64,000 bases of DNA, taken from Pseudomonadota bacterium. Lineage in GTDB: Bacteria; Pseudomonadota; Alphaproteobacteria; Rhizobiales; JAKPQE01. Position numbers and translations under genes: made by a program. The stretch spans positions 62,001 to 126,000 of the forward strand of contig JAKPQE010000078.1 of the NCBI GenBank assembly GCA_029572955.1. The letters are read 5' to 3'. Shown here piece by piece: positions 28,370-58,341 of the stretch (its first letter is position 1; the number at the start of each line of letters is the position of its first letter). The notes below the pieces were generated by a model. It was given only the letters and a program-made list of their open reading frames with translations, was not told the DNA's origin and made no database searches.

Positions 28370-29004
28370 GCAAGTCTCTCCAGGATGGACGCGGCGGTCG
28401 CGAGGTCGCCGGGCGTGTTGACGTTGAAGAACGGGTCGACGGTCGTGCCGGCGATTTCGAGATCGGCAAAGACGAGATCGGCGCTCGGGTGACGATCGAC
28501 GAAGCGGCGAACCTTGCGGTTGTCCGGGTCGGCGAGCCAGAGGGCGAGGTCGTCGGCGAGCGCGACCGGCCACAGGCCGATGACCGGGTGCAGGCCGGCG
28601 GCCGAGCGGGCGAGCACGATGGCGCTGCCGCGGGCGCTCGCCGCCTCGAGCCGCGTGACGAGATCGGCGGGCAGGAACGGCGTGTCGGCGGCAACCGTGA
28701 GGAGCGCCCGGGCGTCCGGCATTTCTGCCTTTGCCCATTCGAGGCCGGCAAGGAGGCCGGCGAGCGGACCGGCATGGCCGGCGACGGTGTCGGCGACGAC
28801 GGCAAGGCCGAAGGCGGAAAGCCGTGCCGGATCGCCATTGGCGTTGATCGCGAGACGGGCGACCTGCGGTGCGACGCGGGCGACGACGTGGGCGAGCATC
28901 GGCCGGCCGGCGAGGTCGAGGAGTGCCTTTTCGTGCCCGCCCATGCGGGTCGAGCGGCCGCCGGCGAGAACGATGCCGGCGATATGCGGGAACGGCCGGT
29001 TCAC
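28366..29004 (-). CDS. mobA: molybdenum cofactor guanylyltransferase MobA
   Basis: Attaches GMP from GTP to molybdopterin to give the dinucleotide cofactor used by DMSO-reductase-family enzymes, including formate dehydrogenases. 212 residues, nucleotide-binding signature VLAGGRSTRMGG followed by EKALL, and the metal-binding AADTPFLP. The start is GTG 29004, overlapping the fdhD stop by 4 nt. Its place directly after fdhD suggests cofactor supply to a formate dehydrogenase, which is not in this window. Confidence 0.93.
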   Translation of the reverse strand: MNRPFPHIAGIVLAGGRSTRMGGHEKALLDLAGRPMLAHVVARVAPQVARLAINANGDPARLSAFGLAVVADTVAGHAGPLAGLLAGLEWAKAEMPDARALLTVAADTPFLPADLVTRLEAASARGSAIVLARSAAGLHPVIGLWPVALADDLALWLADPDNRKVRRFVDRHPSADLVFADLEIAGTTVDPFFNVNTPGDLATAASILERLA

Positions 29005-29888
29005 GCGGCGCCCTCCCCATCCGGCCCGGCGCTCTTGCGGCGGTGGCGGGCGTGCTCGTCCTCGACGGCATGGAGCGGCGCGTCGAAGACGATGCGCTCG
29101 AGCCCCGAAAGCGCGACGAAGCGGCGACCGCGCAGCCGGCCGACCACCGTGAGGTTGGCCTTGCGCGCGAGCTCGACGCCCCAGGCGGTGAAGCCGGAGC
29201 GCGAGGCGAGCACGGGAATGCCCATCTTCACCGTCTTGATGACCATTTCAGAGGTAAGCCGGCCTGTGGTGTAGAAGATCTTGTCGGCGGGATCGATGCC
29301 GTTCATGAACATGTAGCCGGCAATCTTGTCCACCGCATTGTGGCGACCGACGTCCTCCATATAGACCAGCGGCTCGTCGCGGCGGCAGAGCACGCAGCCG
29401 TGAATGGCGCCGGCGGCGAGATAGAGGCTCGGCACGGTGTTGATCTTTTTCGCCAGCGCATAGAGCCAGGAGGTGCGCAGCTCGCCGCCGGGCGGCAGCG
29501 CGATATCGTCGAGGCTTTCCAGCAGGTCGCCGAAGACGGTCCCTTGCGCGCAGCCCGAGGTCTGCACCTTCTTCTTCAGCTTCTCCTCGTAGTTGGTCTT
29601 CCTCTCGGTGCGCACCACGATGGCGCCGAGGTCGGCGTCGTGCTCGATGGCGCGGATGACGTCGTCGGGTTTCAGCATGTGCTGATTGAGCAGATAGCCG
29701 ACGGCGAGAAGATCGGGATGGTCGCCGATCGTCATCGCCGTCACGATCTCCTGCGCATTGAGGAAGATCGTCAGCGGCCGCTCGGTAACGACGCGCACGT
29801 CGACCGCCGCCCCGGTCTCGTCGACGCCGGCGACGGCGACGGACAGGCGCGGATCGTCCGGCGTCGGCGCGATCTCGAATTCCCGCAA
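29001..29888 (-). CDS. fdhD: formate dehydrogenase accessory sulfurtransferase FdhD
   Basis: Transfers sulfur from a cysteine desulfurase to the Moco of formate dehydrogenase. 295 residues. The conserved cysteine lies in TSGCAQGTVF; E. coli FdhD has a CxxC there, while only one cysteine is present here. VYMEDVGRHNAVDKI and YTTGRLTSEMV are family hallmarks. The start is TTG 29888 with GGGGAGG seven bases upstream; no ATG fits. First gene of the overlapping fdhD-mobA-mobB-moeA operon. The last ~25 residues are charged and family-variable. Confidence 0.92.
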   Translation of the reverse strand: MREFEIAPTPDDPRLSVAVAGVDETGAAVDVRVVTERPLTIFLNAQEIVTAMTIGDHPDLLAVGYLLNQHMLKPDDVIRAIEHDADLGAIVVRTERKTNYEEKLKKKVQTSGCAQGTVFGDLLESLDDIALPPGGELRTSWLYALAKKINTVPSLYLAAGAIHGCVLCRRDEPLVYMEDVGRHNAVDKIAGYMFMNGIDPADKIFYTTGRLTSEMVIKTVKMGIPVLASRSGFTAWGVELARKANLTVVGRLRGRRFVALSGLERIVFDAPLHAVEDEHARHRRKSAGPDGEGAA

Positions 29889-31912: not shown

Positions 31913-31928
31913 GTGCAAAATATTGCAC
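31913..31928. promoter_or_regulatory. palindrome before the toxin gene, probable HigA operator
   Basis: GTGCAAAATATTGCAC is a perfect 6-4-6 inverted repeat ending 11 nt before the toxin ATG. Its AT centre could include the -10 region. Autorepression by the antitoxin is the rule in such operons, so this is its likely site. The palindrome argues against the in-frame GTG at 31913 as the start. Confidence 0.6.
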
Positions 31929-31939
31929 AGTCCGGCCTC

Positions 31940-32284
31940 ATGAGCCGGAACGTCTGCTGGGTCAAAGCTGCGCGAAAGGAATATCTCGCGTTCCCGCAAC
32001 CGGTCATCGACGACATCGATGCAAGTCTGTTCGCGGCGGCGCGCGGCGAGACGACCGGGTCGATCAAGCAGATGAAGCATCTCGGACCGGGCGTCTACGA
32101 GATCGCGCTGCGCCATCGCAAGGATGCCTACCGGGCGGTCTATCTGACGCAGATCGGCAACGACATCTGGGTGATCCACGCGTTCCAGAAGAAGTCGACG
32201 AGCGGGATCAAGACGCCGCAGAAGGAAATGGACGTCATCCGCGAGAGACTGAAACGCCTGAAGGAGGCTTTGTCGAATGGATGA
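31940..32284 (+). CDS. RelE/HigB-type toxin (Gp49-like, DUF891)
   Basis: A 114-residue mRNA-interferase-like toxin. The family pattern is plain: a basic first helix with FPQPVIDDIDASLF, then KQMKHLGPGVYEIALRHRKDAYRAVYL and VIHAFQKKSTSGIKTP. The toxin gene comes first and the antitoxin second, the HigBA order. The last 8 nt overlap the antitoxin gene. Likely to cleave mRNA on the ribosome unless neutralised; this follows from the family. Confidence 0.88.
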   Translation: MSRNVCWVKAARKEYLAFPQPVIDDIDASLFAAARGETTGSIKQMKHLGPGVYEIALRHRKDAYRAVYLTQIGNDIWVIHAFQKKSTSGIKTPQKEMDVIRERLKRLKEALSNG

Positions 32285-32585
32285 TCTCGAACTCGTTCGC
32301 GGCACCGACAATCCGTTCGCGGACCGGCAAGACCCGGCCGCCGCGTCGAAGGCGTTGAAGGCCGAGATCCTGACGGCGATCCTCGGCATCCTTCGCGAAC
32401 GCGACCTCGGCGCGACCCGGGCCGGCGAGATTGCCGGCATCTCGCGCTCGCAAATGTCGCGGATCAGGAACGGCCGGATCAGCTCGATCAGTCTCGATGT
32501 TCTCGTCAACGTCCTCGACGCACTGTCCGGACACCGGGCAGTCGTGCATGTCGCCTTCGCGGAACCGGCGACGGCGCGGGCGTGA
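32277..32585 (+). CDS. HigA-type antitoxin (XRE helix-turn-helix)
   Basis: A 102-residue DNA-binding antitoxin. The helix-turn-helix is at about residues 45-75 (TRAGEIAGISRSQMSRIRNGRISSISLDVL). AAGGAGG precedes the ATG, which overlaps the toxin stop region. It should bind the toxin and repress the operon through the palindrome upstream. The last residues (VVHVAFAEPATARA) form a short tail. Confidence 0.87.
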   Translation: MDDLELVRGTDNPFADRQDPAAASKALKAEILTAILGILRERDLGATRAGEIAGISRSQMSRIRNGRISSISLDVLVNVLDALSGHRAVVHVAFAEPATARA

Positions 32586-32764
32586 GGGCGCGGGGTGCGC
32601 CCGCCGCATCGAGTGGTGAGACGCATGATGATGCAGCCCATTGTTCGATTTGGTTGAGCGGATTTTCTGGAGAAAAATCGCTGCTTAATCTTATCATATC
32701 GGCAAAATTACTATAAATTCTAAATTCTCCCCTTCTTGGCATCCAGAATAACGGAGGAAAGATA

Positions 32765-33784
32765 TTGCCTATGAGAGATACAGTTCGAGTCATTCAAGCA
32801 AACAAACGGCGCGTTAAAATATTTGTTGATTTTTGGAACGTCGTTGTAAATGCACGGAATCAATCAAAGATGTTTGATTTAGAAGTTCGATGGGACGCTT
32901 TGGCGGATTTCGTTCTTAACAAGACAAGATCTGGATACACCGATGAGACTACAGGAGAAATGGCCGGCTGTTATGTATTCGGTTCGTACCCGAAATCAAA
33001 TCACAAAGAATACAAATTTATAAAACGGACTATCGATGAATTCTGATCTCTTCCTGGGCTATTTTTTGACTTTCAGGAACGAATTTCAAAAACATCCTCT
33101 GTTCGTTGCGCAAAGTGCGGCCAATCGAACCGAGCAAAATCGGAAGCCGGGGTCGACGTCCTGCTTGCAGTTGAAATGATTAAGCACTCCGCCATGAAGG
33201 AGCATGAATACATGGCTTTAATTTCCAGTGATCGAGATTTTGCTCCAGTATTATCCTATCTAAGAGACCAAGGTCACAGAATAATACATGTATCGGCATC
33301 AATGATAGACCAGAACATGACATCATTGTCCTGGAGCCATATAAACCTATCCGACACTTACACTACATTATGCAAGATAAATATGGATGGGTATACTGTT
33401 TTTTCTACACCTCATTGCACTGTTGAACTTGCAGAACTTAAGAGACACGCACCGGTCGATGCAGATAAGCTGAGAATAATCGACTTGACAGACAAAACAC
33501 AAATCGGAGATGAAGACCTATCTTTTATTGTCTCTCATCTGAATATGTATTGGCCAGACCCAGGAAAAGAAAGCAATTTATACTTTGACATCAAAAAATT
33601 CGGCAGCATTTCAAAATTTCGAAAGCTTCTAAGTGAAGGGGCAATATGGGGAAATCTACCGTATGTACTGCGCAATGGCCAATCAGAAATATTTTTCACC
33701 AACCATGATCACACCTTTCCTTGGATAGTATCCGGCAGCACTGGAGCTGGTGACCGATGGCGGAGTCTGAGAGAGAAACGCTGA
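32765..33784 (+). pseudogene. NYN-domain (PIN-like) nuclease gene with one in-frame TGA
   Basis: Read from TTG 32765 (GGAGG seven bases upstream; ATG 32771 also possible) to 33784 in one frame, 340 codons with a single stop at codon 94 (TGA, 33044-33046). Both sides belong to one NYN/LabA-like domain: IFVDFWNVV (Asp22) before the stop; CAKCG (115-119), GVDVLLAVEM (Asp131) and ISSDRDF (Asp156/158) after it. NYN proteins are metal-dependent RNases. Residues beyond ~190 are unrecognised. The gene is far AT-richer than its surroundings, which suggests recent transfer. The TGA may be a nonsense mutation, a sequencing error or a read-through site. Confidence 0.75.
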
Positions 33785-33909
33785 TACTCTCGGTCACGGC
33801 AGATCGTGCGTTACGCCCAGCCGGCACCCCACCTCTTTCCTCTCCCTCTCCACCCCGACGCCACGAGACACCCATCCCGGCCGCTCGCGCCAAAGCCGGC
33901 GCGCCCCTC

Positions 33910-53498: not shown

Positions 53499-54145
53499 TA
53501 GTTCCACCCCTCATAGGCAAGCAATGCATGGCCTTTTCGCACAAAAGCCAAGTCTACCTGGCCCTGCGCGTTGTCGTATGGCCGGTTCAGCGGCGCAAAT
53601 ATCTCGTAAAGCTGAAATCCCTGCTCGAACAGGAAGTCGATGATATCCCGAACGAGGTTTTTCCGATTGGTCAGGGATGCCTCGACGATCACGGTATCGC
53701 ATTTGCGCAACGTCCCGGTCGCGCCGTGGAGGGCCCGCAGGTCGGCCCCCTGGACGTCGAGCTTCAGGAGCGCGCCGTTTTCGATCGGGCTCGACCCGAC
53801 AATTACATCGATGGTGCGGATCGGAACCGTGAAGGTTACTTCGCCATTCTTCGGCGCTTCGAGAACATTCGCACCGGCCAGGGCCTGCGGGGTAAGATTT
53901 ACCGCGACATCAACTTGACCTTCCTTGTCCCCGACCCCGACCAAATGGCTCTCGCCACGCACCCGCTTGAGAATGCGCTCGAGATCCCCTTCGAAACACG
54001 GCAGGGCTTCGATCAGGATGAAATAGGCAGTCGGAAAACCCTCATATAATTCCGGTGTTCCCCAAGCAACACCGACATCCAGCACAGTTTCCGGCGCGTA
54101 ATCGAGAGAACGCAAATGGGTGATGAATGCTCGGAAGTCGCGCAT
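53498..54145 (-). CDS. FkbM-family methyltransferase 1
   Basis: A 215-residue SAM-dependent methyltransferase. SAM-binding VLDVGVAWGTPELY is near residue 23, the acidic FILIEALP end of strand 2 follows, and the FkbM signature appears as LLKLDVQGADLRALHGA. Likely O-methylates a sugar hydroxyl. ATG 54145 has GGAGG upstream and shares one base with the stop of the sulfotransferase gene (TAATG). Confidence 0.85.
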   Translation of the reverse strand: MRDFRAFITHLRSLDYAPETVLDVGVAWGTPELYEGFPTAYFILIEALPCFEGDLERILKRVRGESHLVGVGDKEGQVDVAVNLTPQALAGANVLEAPKNGEVTFTVPIRTIDVIVGSSPIENGALLKLDVQGADLRALHGATGTLRKCDTVIVEASLTNRKNLVRDIIDFLFEQGFQLYEIFAPLNRPYDNAQGQVDLAFVRKGHALLAYEGWN

Positions 54146-54891
54146 TAGCCTGTCCTCCGCCGGTGCGCGTCGTATTCTCTGACGAATTCGTAGAGTCGCC
54201 GGTCCTGTTCTGTTGCACCCATCAGAAGCGACAGACAACCGCTGTTCAGATCGGACACCGCCACGCCCCGAGGACTGACGTTCTCGCGCCGGGCCGCATC
54301 GATCGAAATGCCGAAATTCTCCGCCAGGAACGGATTGATCGCTTCGATGTCGTCCGACACTCCGAAGAAGTCGAAGTTCGACAACAGACTGTCCCGCGCC
54401 GTTTCGAACTTCGCATCATTGCGATCGCCCAGATACAAACACTGATGGTTCAATACAGATTCCGGATCGACCGAAAGCAGGAAGCGGAAATAGTCTTCCG
54501 GCTCCATGGTCAATGCCTGTTGGTGGTATTGTTCGTACGCGGCCGATCGGGTGTAATTGTAGGCAGAGACCAGACGCTTGATGGGATCACGCAGAAACGT
54601 CAGCCCGCGCGGATTGTCGATACCGACACGCCGAAATATATCGGCAAATCGGACGTATTTGGCGTGCCCGCAAATGATCCTGCATCGCGGATCGGCAATC
54701 GCATTGCCGACGCGATCGAGGAAAGTCAGTCCATCCTTCTGACCGTCGTTTATCTGCGGGGCGGCTTCTTCGCCAAGTGCCTCGCGCAGCTGAACCTGTA
54801 CAGACGTTCCGGCCGCCTTGAAGATATGGACGAATGCGTAGACTGTTCGCTTCGCTCGGTTTTCCGACCGACGCGGCGGAACCAACCACAT
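54145..54891 (-). CDS. carbohydrate sulfotransferase-like protein
   Basis: A 248-residue sulfotransferase of the PF03567-like (heparan 2-O / chondroitin) type. 5'-phosphosulfate loop FVHIFKAAGTSVQVQL, 3'-phosphate site FLRDPIKRLVSAYNY. Such enzymes act on sugar residues of glycans. ATG 54891 is chosen because the stop of the upstream gene overlaps it by one base (TGATG); the in-frame extension upstream is inside that gene. AAGGGA serves as ribosome-binding site. Confidence 0.83.
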   Translation of the reverse strand: MWLVPPRRSENRAKRTVYAFVHIFKAAGTSVQVQLREALGEEAAPQINDGQKDGLTFLDRVGNAIADPRCRIICGHAKYVRFADIFRRVGIDNPRGLTFLRDPIKRLVSAYNYTRSAAYEQYHQQALTMEPEDYFRFLLSVDPESVLNHQCLYLGDRNDAKFETARDSLLSNFDFFGVSDDIEAINPFLAENFGISIDAARRENVSPRGVAVSDLNSGCLSLLMGATEQDRRLYEFVREYDAHRRRTG

Positions 54892-56966
54892 CAGAAATCC
54901 CTTCCGCTCATCTCGACTTGCGTGTTGCGCGCCGAAAGCCGGAGTGCCAGCTCCGAGAATGAACTCCACGTCGATCCAAGGAGAAGCGGTGCCGTTCCGA
55001 GCAGCAGCGCGTCGGCCAGCGCATATCGCAACTGCTCGGCCGAGCGATCGTAGAGATCCCGCGTGAGGTAGGCAACGCGGGCCCCGTAGGCTGCCTGGAA
55101 CTCCAGATATGTCTCCGACTTGTCCGCGGCGAGGAGCACCCGCTCCGCCCTGCCCTCGGCAATCAAGGCATCGATCCGCTTCATGAAATGCGAGAAATGG
55201 CTGCGCTCGCGCCAGTGCTCGATCGCGGCGTGGCCTTCCGCCGTCCAGTTTTCGGTCGCCTCATAGGGAAGATGTTCGTAGTCCTTTCCGCCAACCATCC
55301 GGACATGGGCCGAGACATCGTTCGGCTGACGTACCGTCGAAACGAGATCGCGAACGGCCTCGACCGGACGCAGGGCGCGCAGCCATCTGTTCTCCATGTC
55401 CCAGCCAGTAATCGGGGAGTTCAGCACATAGGCCGAACGCACATAGGCATCCTTCGTCGAATCGAGGGCGAGAAGAGCATCCTTTTCGGATCCTTCTTCC
55501 GCTTCCATGTAATTGAAGACGGTGAAACCGTCGGCGACCGCATCGGATACGAAGTTCTTCCCGATGACGGCGCCCTGATACTCGAACAGATCGGAAATCA
55601 GACAATCGCAATGGTGATCGGCTTCCCAGACCGCCACGAGTTCGCGGTCCGTGGCCTCGGCTATGACCGCCGCGGAGGCAAGAGCCCGAAGTCGATTGCC
55701 AAGACCATGCTGGACGTCGGCGAAGATCTTTCGACGTGGGGCCGAGACATTCGGCACCGAAAGACGCGGGGCAACCTTGTCGGCGCCCGGTTGTGCCTGC
55801 TGCGACCCGAGCAATTTCCACACGTCGGCCGTCTCGATCTCGTCGAGCCGCTTGCTCTCGAGCAGGCGATAGAAATCCGCACGCGGCAAATGATACACCG
55901 ATGGCCCGATCCGCCATGAGACCAATTCGAGAGCAGCGTAGTATTCGGCGTCTGCCTTGATGTCGCTTCCCACGTAATGGGGCATTGCCCCCTGTCTTCG
56001 CCTCACTTCGATATAGGATTCCGTATTCAGCAAAACATCGAACGGAACGAGCTGTCGTTCATTCGTCCATGGCGGCATGACCAGAGAAAGGTAGCGGTTG
56101 CCGCGAATTCTGAACAACGGGTTTGCGGCAAGGTCACCGACAGCGTCTTTCGGCGCACTGTCCGAACCGCTCAGCCTTTGAACGTCCTCGTGCGGAATGT
56201 GATAGATTGTCTCCACATCGACGCAGACTCTTTTCAAGCCGAATTTCTGAAACCGCAGATAAAGTTCATCGTCGTCCCACCCATATGTCGTAATATACTC
56301 GTTGAAACCGTTGATCCGCATCAAATCATCACGGAACGTGTAAAAGAATCCGTTGATGTGCTCCTGCCCTTCGTCGGCGACTTCCCAATCCCCCGCAACG
56401 AATGTTCCGGAGGCCAACACGTTCTTCTCGAAAAAGGCCGGCTTCAGCTTGATGTCGGCGTCGACCTTGAGGATTCTCGCGGCCTTCGCGTGGCGAAAAC
56501 CGAGATTGAAGGCACAGGACAGAATCCATCGCGGCTCGTCGAGGACACGAATGATCTTGATCCGCCGGTCCTCGATGCCTGCGCCACGCAAGGCGTCGGA
56601 CACCGGAACGGCGCTGGACCAGTCGACGACGATGATCTCGTCGATTTCTTCGAGCGCCAGCCAGGTCGGAAGGGCCTGCAGCAGGTTTTCCGTCCGATTC
56701 ATGCAGCAGGTGACGAGCGAGACGCCGCCGCCCGATGCCGGCTCCTTCGCTGCGCCGGCCGCCTTGTCGGCCCAGTCGACGGACGGATGGATGGCGTAGG
56801 TCTTTCTGATGAACTCGATGAGCTTGCGGGTCGACGCCCCGCCCTTGGCGCCCGGATCCTTTTCCAGTTGCGACTCGATGCCGAGGAGAATGCGGTTGGC
56901 GCGCGAGCGATCGCCGCTCCTTGCCGCTTTCAATGCCTGATCGATCAAGGCCGCATTGGTGGTCAT
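54891..56966 (-). CDS. two-domain glycosyltransferase (GT-A domain plus fucosyltransferase-like domain)
   Basis: A 691-residue protein with two different transferase-like parts. Residues ~80-300 are a GT-A domain: SLVTCCMNRTENLLQALPTW, the DxD in ILKVDADIKL, and TYGWDDDELYLRF as in galactosyltransferase C-terminal domains. From about residue 430 KIFADVQHGLGNRLRALASA begins a GT-B-like domain reminiscent of alpha-1,6-fucosyltransferase/NodZ proteins. It may add two sugars in sequence. The N-terminal 60 residues are helical. DNA is visibly less G+C-rich than average here. Overlaps downstream by one base. Confidence 0.75.
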   Translation of the reverse strand: MTTNAALIDQALKAARSGDRSRANRILLGIESQLEKDPGAKGGASTRKLIEFIRKTYAIHPSVDWADKAAGAAKEPASGGGVSLVTCCMNRTENLLQALPTWLALEEIDEIIVVDWSSAVPVSDALRGAGIEDRRIKIIRVLDEPRWILSCAFNLGFRHAKAARILKVDADIKLKPAFFEKNVLASGTFVAGDWEVADEGQEHINGFFYTFRDDLMRINGFNEYITTYGWDDDELYLRFQKFGLKRVCVDVETIYHIPHEDVQRLSGSDSAPKDAVGDLAANPLFRIRGNRYLSLVMPPWTNERQLVPFDVLLNTESYIEVRRRQGAMPHYVGSDIKADAEYYAALELVSWRIGPSVYHLPRADFYRLLESKRLDEIETADVWKLLGSQQAQPGADKVAPRLSVPNVSAPRRKIFADVQHGLGNRLRALASAAVIAEATDRELVAVWEADHHCDCLISDLFEYQGAVIGKNFVSDAVADGFTVFNYMEAEEGSEKDALLALDSTKDAYVRSAYVLNSPITGWDMENRWLRALRPVEAVRDLVSTVRQPNDVSAHVRMVGGKDYEHLPYEATENWTAEGHAAIEHWRERSHFSHFMKRIDALIAEGRAERVLLAADKSETYLEFQAAYGARVAYLTRDLYDRSAEQLRYALADALLLGTAPLLLGSTWSSFSELALRLSARNTQVEMSGRDF

Positions 56967-56970
56967 GCGC

Positions 56971-58341
56971 TCATGCCCCCTTGGGTCCGGAGCCGGAAAC
57001 GGGCGGATACGCCGGCGATCGCCTGAAGAACCAATCGTCCCACTCCCGCTCGATGCAGTCGTAGCCATGGCCCTCGAGCAGGTTCCGGATGTCCTTGCGC
57101 CGCGCCGTGAAATTGTGCTCGACCGTCAGGAGCGCGACGTCCCAGTCGGCGAACGGGAAGCTCTCGAGAATGTCGAACTCGCTGCCTTCGGTGTCGATGC
57201 TGATGTAGTCGATCCGGCGCGGTGCACCGTGTCTGACGAGGAGATCGTCGAGCGACAGCGTCGTCAGCCTGGCGACATCGCCGGCGGCGCGATAGGCCTC
57301 GCGCCGCTCGCTGTGCATGTCGTCGCCGGCATAGGCGGCGATCCCGCCATAGACGTCGGCAAGGATGAACTCGACCTCGTCGCCGGTGCGCGGGCCGATG
57401 CAGTCGCCGGTGACGATGCAGGCGCGGTTGGCCCGCAATTCCGTGAGGAAGGACGGGTTCGGCTCGACACAGATGCCGTTCCAGCCGAACTTCTTTTCGA
57501 GCAGCCAGGAATTGCTGAGGAGGACGCCGTTCGCCGCGCCGACCTCGACGAAGAAGCCGCCGCGCCTGAAGCCGGTGTTTTCGAGGACCCAGACGTCCTG
57601 ACCGAGTTGCGCCATCGAGTTCTCGCGCGCGGTCCGGGCATCCTCGCCCGGCGACGCGACCGCGCCGGCGTCGCGATCGCCCGGCCGCGGCACCTGGATC
57701 TGCCGGCGGTCGAGGGCGAGGGTCAGTTCGTGGCGCAGCTGATCCATCTCCGATTTCAGCATGTCGAACCGGCGATCGCGCGACCGCGTGCCGGGGCGGG
57801 ACCGCAGCTCCCCGGCGAGCCGCAGCTCGAGCCGGGCCGCCGCATCGGCGAAGAGGCCGATCCGCGCCATTTCGCCGTTGCGGCGCCGCTCGGCGAGGCG
57901 CGTCGCATCGGCTCTGCCGGGCCGGTCGGCATCGACGGCGCGCGCGAAATAGGACGCCGCCTGTTCGTCGTCCCGGCGGATCGCCGCGATGTTGCCGAAG
58001 GTGTTGCAGGCGCCGGCGATCAGAACCTGCGCCAGCGTCCGGCGCGGGCAACCCCAGGCCGCCGCCTGGCGGATGAAGGTCTCGGCCCGGCCCGCTTCGC
58101 CAAGCTGTTGCAGGGCACTGCCGGCGAGAAGCGCGATCTCGGCGCGATCGGCCTGGCCGTCGATGGCCGAGAGCTCGATTCCGGCAAGGGCGCGCCAGTT
58201 GCCGAGCAGCCACTGATCCTTGACGAAGCGCAGGCCGTTGCTTTCCGCGCCGCCGGAGACCAGCGGCATCCGCCCCTCGGTCGCACTGTCCTTTGTCCGA
58301 TCCCTGCTTGCCATGGCATCCGATCCGCGGCCGTCAGCCAT
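56971..58341 (-). CDS. FkbM-family methyltransferase 2 with helical N-terminal domain
   Basis: A 456-residue protein. The first ~150 residues resemble tetratricopeptide-like helices (WRALAGIELSAIDGQADRAEIALLAGSALQQLG and following, in part). Residues ~250-440 are the methyltransferase: VFVEVGAANGVLLS-type motif read as FFVEVGAANGVLL, CVEPNP, and YISIDTEGSEFDILESFP, the FkbM hallmark. Likely a sugar O-methyltransferase in complex with other cluster proteins. Its start overlaps the end of the gene upstream by 8 nt, and it stops 4 nt before the next start. Confidence 0.85.
   Translation of the reverse strand: MADGRGSDAMASRDRTKDSATEGRMPLVSGGAESNGLRFVKDQWLLGNWRALAGIELSAIDGQADRAEIALLAGSALQQLGEAGRAETFIRQAAAWGCPRRTLAQVLIAGACNTFGNIAAIRRDDEQAASYFARAVDADRPGRADATRLAERRRNGEMARIGLFADAAARLELRLAGELRSRPGTRSRDRRFDMLKSEMDQLRHELTLALDRRQIQVPRPGDRDAGAVASPGEDARTARENSMAQLGQDVWVLENTGFRRGGFFVEVGAANGVLLSNSWLLEKKFGWNGICVEPNPSFLTELRANRACIVTGDCIGPRTGDEVEFILADVYGGIAAYAGDDMHSERREAYRAAGDVARLTTLSLDDLLVRHGAPRRIDYISIDTEGSEFDILESFPFADWDVALLTVEHNFTARRKDIRNLLEGHGYDCIEREWDDWFFRRSPAYPPVSGSGPKGA

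Follow-up and report, generated by a model that had tools for sequence, protein, structure and literature searches.

The window, the whole 64,000-nucleotide stretch of DNA analysed from contig JAKPQE010000078.1 of an alphaproteobacterial genome in the order Rhizobiales, carries a gene for a predicted NYN-domain ribonuclease that is interrupted by one in-frame TGA. The likely explanation is the recent nonsense inactivation of a horizontally acquired, island-borne gene, with the stop known from one genome. A single plus-strand frame of 340 codons, including its own terminal stop (TGA, 33782–33784), runs from 32765 to 33784, and its sole internal stop is the TGA at 33044–33046, which is codon 94 counted from the TTG at 32765. 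This confirms the preliminary description, made from the letters of the window alone, in which both pieces were placed in one frame broken at this codon. The features of the locus are as follows.

31913–32284, plus strand: neighbouring Gp49/HigB-like toxin gene (PF05973, E 1.5e-15).
32277–32585, plus strand: neighbouring HTH_37 antitoxin-like gene (PF13744, E 3.6e-12).
32590–33790, no strand: AT-rich stretch of 42% GC, which coincides with the gene and its leader.
32744–32764, plus strand: leader in which a GGAGG resembling a ribosome-binding site precedes the TTG start by 7 nt (read directly).
32765–33784, plus strand: predicted NYN-domain ribonuclease gene, interrupted by a single in-frame TGA (Pfam NYN E 5.5e-11; co-linear over its full length with two intact relatives).
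32765–33043, plus strand: N-terminal piece of 93 aa with the putative catalytic D22; no Pfam match alone.
33044–33046, plus strand: in-frame TGA, codon 94; Gly in both close relatives and Asp or Asn in distant ones.
33047–33784, plus strand: C-terminal piece of 245 codons to the natural stop, with D131, D156, D158, the CxxC pair C115/C118 and the C-terminal extension.

The start chosen in the preliminary description is reasonable, because the GGAGG lies 7 bases before TTG 32765 and this TTG aligns within one codon of the ATG of relatives. Read through the stop, the frame matches Pfam NYN (PF01936) over residues 14–185 with 43.6 bits against a cut-off of 24.2 (E 5.5e-11). On its own, the C-terminal piece reaches 38.9 bits (E 1.6e-9) and the N-terminal piece falls below detection. 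The two pieces together form the complete NYN domain with all the acidic residues that had been proposed for them: D22, D131, D156 and D158 are present and are invariant in seven aligned members. No single translated product contains that complete domain, as the TGA at codon 94 parts D22 from the other aspartates.

An AlphaFold2 model built from the window protein and six relatives is fair for the NYN part and poor for the extension past about residue 200. Foldseek comparison of the NYN-part model with the PDB returns 2QIP as the best match (E 3.6e-8), followed by MARF1 chains (6FDL, 5YAA) at E 3.5e-7 to 6.4e-5, so the modelled NYN part has an NYN/PIN-like fold. A search of the PDB by sequence with the read-through protein found no relative. 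The C-terminal extension of about 140 residues (window 33365–33784) has no Pfam match, is modelled with low confidence and is common only to three close members. By analogy with the NYN ribonuclease of B. fragilis and with MARF1, the intact gene product would be an NYN (PIN-like) ribonuclease with metal-dependent (Mn/Mg) activity.

Two close relatives, both alphaproteobacterial, are co-linear with the window frame from start to stop. One, L003 (JARLJA010000096.1), comes from a Xanthobacteraceae MAG, is 48% identical and reads as one intact protein across the stop site; the other, L009 (genome G202, same order), is 49% identical, with an intact open frame of 358 aa across the same site. A further relative, L010:2-884, lies at the edge of a contig and comprises only a C-terminal fragment, and more distant relatives have the NYN core only in common. 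Out of 398 genomes in the order, four have the subfamily; one of these is the window's own, and two of the others are weak or partial matches. It also occurs in one of 20 genomes in the family of G202, and is thus rare, patchily distributed and probably carried on islands. Homologues naturally divided at the stop point, the finding that the preliminary description had named as counting against it, were sought among the relatives and none was found. There was no match in phage records and none in IMG/VR with either the protein or the alignment, the scan of the collection covering exact pattern matches only. Among plasmids, only small alphaproteobacterial and Cobetia ones gave matches, at 23–26% identity and confined to the NYN core.

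The composition of the gene is foreign to its surroundings. The window averages 67.4% GC and the gene has 41.5%, or −5.8 sd among windows of the same size, which bears out the description of an AT-rich island in a high-G+C chromosome. Third-position GC is 37% before the stop and 39% after it, the same foreign composition in both halves. The gene lies just after a toxin-antitoxin pair, as had been noted; this pair cannot be clearly assigned to the AT-rich insert, because its GC of 63% is close to that of the chromosome. A search of the flanks for direct repeats, which had been suggested as a check, gave none that was convincing and no insertion signature at the locus. The nearest tRNA, a candidate insertion site, is 18 kb off, and no empty site was recovered, since the flanking transporter gene is not beside the same neighbours in related genomes. 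The gene was probably acquired horizontally. Elsewhere in the window, at 53500–57000, lies a second lower-GC stretch (56–61%) whose genes, named by eye, are lookalikes of an FkbM-type methyltransferase, a sulfotransferase and a large glycosyltransferase.

The neighbourhoods of the relatives bear on what the intact family may do. The L009 relative sits in an 18 kb stretch (L096, G202:C12:174500-192500) with a phage-type integrase, a resolvase, a terminase-small-subunit-like gene, Schlafen-AlbA and an N6/N4 DNA methylase, together with an endonuclease-like gene identified by a weak match. The intact L003 relative lies in a lower-GC stretch (L003:1285-6638) with an AbiEii-like nucleotidyltransferase gene and a HicB-like gene, and the L010 fragment is followed by a YefM-YoeB pair. 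These three loci give moderate support to a possible role of the intact family in island-borne conflict, plasmid conflict or defence, and to that extent to the defence-like function guessed for the gene. Two further observations concern these islands: the methylase and the endonuclease-like gene beside L009 may form a type III restriction-modification system, and an unannotated gene of 358 aa lies directly upstream of the NYN gene in L003.

Conservation on the two sides of the stop bears on the age of the lesion. At columns where both close relatives agree, the window protein matches them in 43 of 62 cases before the stop and 81 of 121 after it (p 0.87), and it keeps 22 of the 23 positions that are invariant in six relatives. 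The equal conservation on both sides and the retention of these residues indicate that the lesion is young and that decay has hardly begun. The bound on its age is a loose one, and "recent" is to be read accordingly: 4.6% of random substitutions in the gene would make a further stop, so that some 63 neutral substitutions (about 6%) could accrue before the probability of a second stop reached 95%.

The residue aligned with codon 94, which the preliminary description had proposed to compare, varies among homologues. The column reads G, D, D, N, N, N in six relatives, Gly being the residue of both close ones, and in the model the site falls in a loop between helix 80–93 and strand 99–106. Judged from the alignment and the model, it looks like a tolerant surface turn rather than a conserved special or recoding residue.

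These results suggest a simple course of events. A recent point mutation would have turned a codon for a loop on the surface of the NYN domain into TGA, translation would end after residue 93, and the product would hold one of three catalytic aspartates. The rest of the active site lies downstream of the stop, where a start at the internal ATG at 33176 would yield a product missing both D22 and D131; ordinary leakage at UGA could yield traces of enzyme. The gene is probably null, because the active site would be incomplete in either piece, and most likely it makes no working enzyme in this genome. As a recent pseudogene it is an ordinary case.

Recent nonsense mutation, sequencing error and read-through had been put forward as the three options. 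They were the right alternatives, and the evidence ranks the nonsense mutation first. This ranking takes the stop to be real in living cells; the competing view is that a mistake in base calling or assembly put the TGA into the sequence, the organism itself having an intact gene. Such an error would fit a sole lesion in 340 codons, the retention of all but one of the family-invariant residues and an assembly that is a draft of 182 contigs. Single-base substitution errors are, however, rare in polished assemblies, and the five top candidates in a codon-usage scan for broken genes, which covered the window and would miss genes of foreign composition, are ordinary gene ends or shadow frames, with no other broken genes. 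An error is unlikely.

Low-level read-through, in which near-cognate tRNA-Trp reads the UGA and a little full-length enzyme is made, an amount that in the case of a toxic RNase might be tolerated or even be of use, is improbable. Bacteria show some leakage at UGA, and stops lying in frame under purifying selection are reported to be widespread (PMC7918605). Here the TGA lies in a change-tolerant loop, and conservation after the stop equals that before it. In addition, a fully unpinned top anticodon-stem pair in tRNA-Trp promotes UGA reading (PMC13092985), and the sole tRNA-Trp(CCA) among the 42 tRNAs of the assembly (L063:155-230) has, as read from its sequence, a G27-U43 wobble as its top anticodon-stem pair. 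Because G and U do pair, the tRNA differs from the published 4-bp form (PMC13092985), and the wobble is only a reason not to dismiss leakage. Against read-through also stand the use of TGA as the main genuine stop, the lack of a structured element after it (the predicted RNA fold is no better than shuffles, z −0.46) and its absence from the relatives. Neither mark of programmed read-through, a stop conserved in relatives or a stimulatory element, was seen: the relatives have Gly, Asp or Asn, and the fold is not significant. Genome-wide reassignment of UGA was considered separately and rejected, since TGA is the chief stop codon and ends 25 of the 29 long ORFs in the window.

A more elaborate form of leakage is highly doubtful. 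It would have a potentially toxic, island-borne NYN RNase kept near-silent by a leaky UGA in a tolerant loop, read weakly by tRNA-Trp; if true, the stop would be an expression brake and not an inactivating lesion.

It is very improbable that an enzyme is put together from the 93-aa piece and a C-terminal part translated from an internal start. The break does fall in a loop on the surface, with a helix on one side and a strand on the other, the kind of place at which split proteins can come together again, and there is an ATG at 33176. A start there drops residues 95–137, including D131 and the CxxC pair, has no evident ribosome-binding site and finds no parallel in a split relative. Selenocysteine insertion can practically be dismissed: the codon is TGA and a formate-dehydrogenase accessory gene, fdhD, named by eye, lies nearby (29001–29888), but the genome has no SelB over the cut-off, none of the 42 tRNAs of the assembly has a UCA anticodon, no relative has Cys at the stop column and no significant fold follows the stop. 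Suppression by a tRNA likewise finds no support.

Nonsense inactivation remains the preferred reading, and the locus illustrates clearly how a gene of probable horizontal origin looks soon after a nonsense mutation has made it a pseudogene. Through it a small subfamily of predicted NYN RNases also comes to light, patchy in distribution and with an uncharacterised C-terminal extension, whose members recur next to toxin-antitoxin, restriction and integrase genes. As candidate defence RNases, its intact members are better subjects than the window copy.

A comparison with known systems places the gene among NYN proteins while setting it apart from each of them. In the CRISPR-associated NYN RNase of B. 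fragilis, the substitution D13A abolishes RNA cleavage (PMC11346440), and D22, D131 and D156 of the window protein have almost the same spacing as D13, D118 and D143 of that enzyme (PMC11346440); no CRISPR genes were seen at 28–38 kb of the window. VPA0982 (PDB 2QIP) is the protein behind the best Foldseek match. Unlike both of these, the window gene has the TGA break, a CxxC/CPHC segment and the additional C-terminal extension. The NYN domain of MARF1 (PDB 6FDL, 5YAA) has the same fold by Foldseek, but MARF1 is eukaryotic, has RRM and LOTUS domains and is about 15% identical. The PADLOC models HEC-09 and NYN/LabA-like match the NYN core weakly (E 6e-7 and 3e-4), with partial profile coverage and no recognised HEC-09 context at this locus. 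The nearest likeness is to the subfamily members L003 and L009, whose identity to the window protein extends over the whole length, C-terminal extension included, and which differ from it in having no internal stop.
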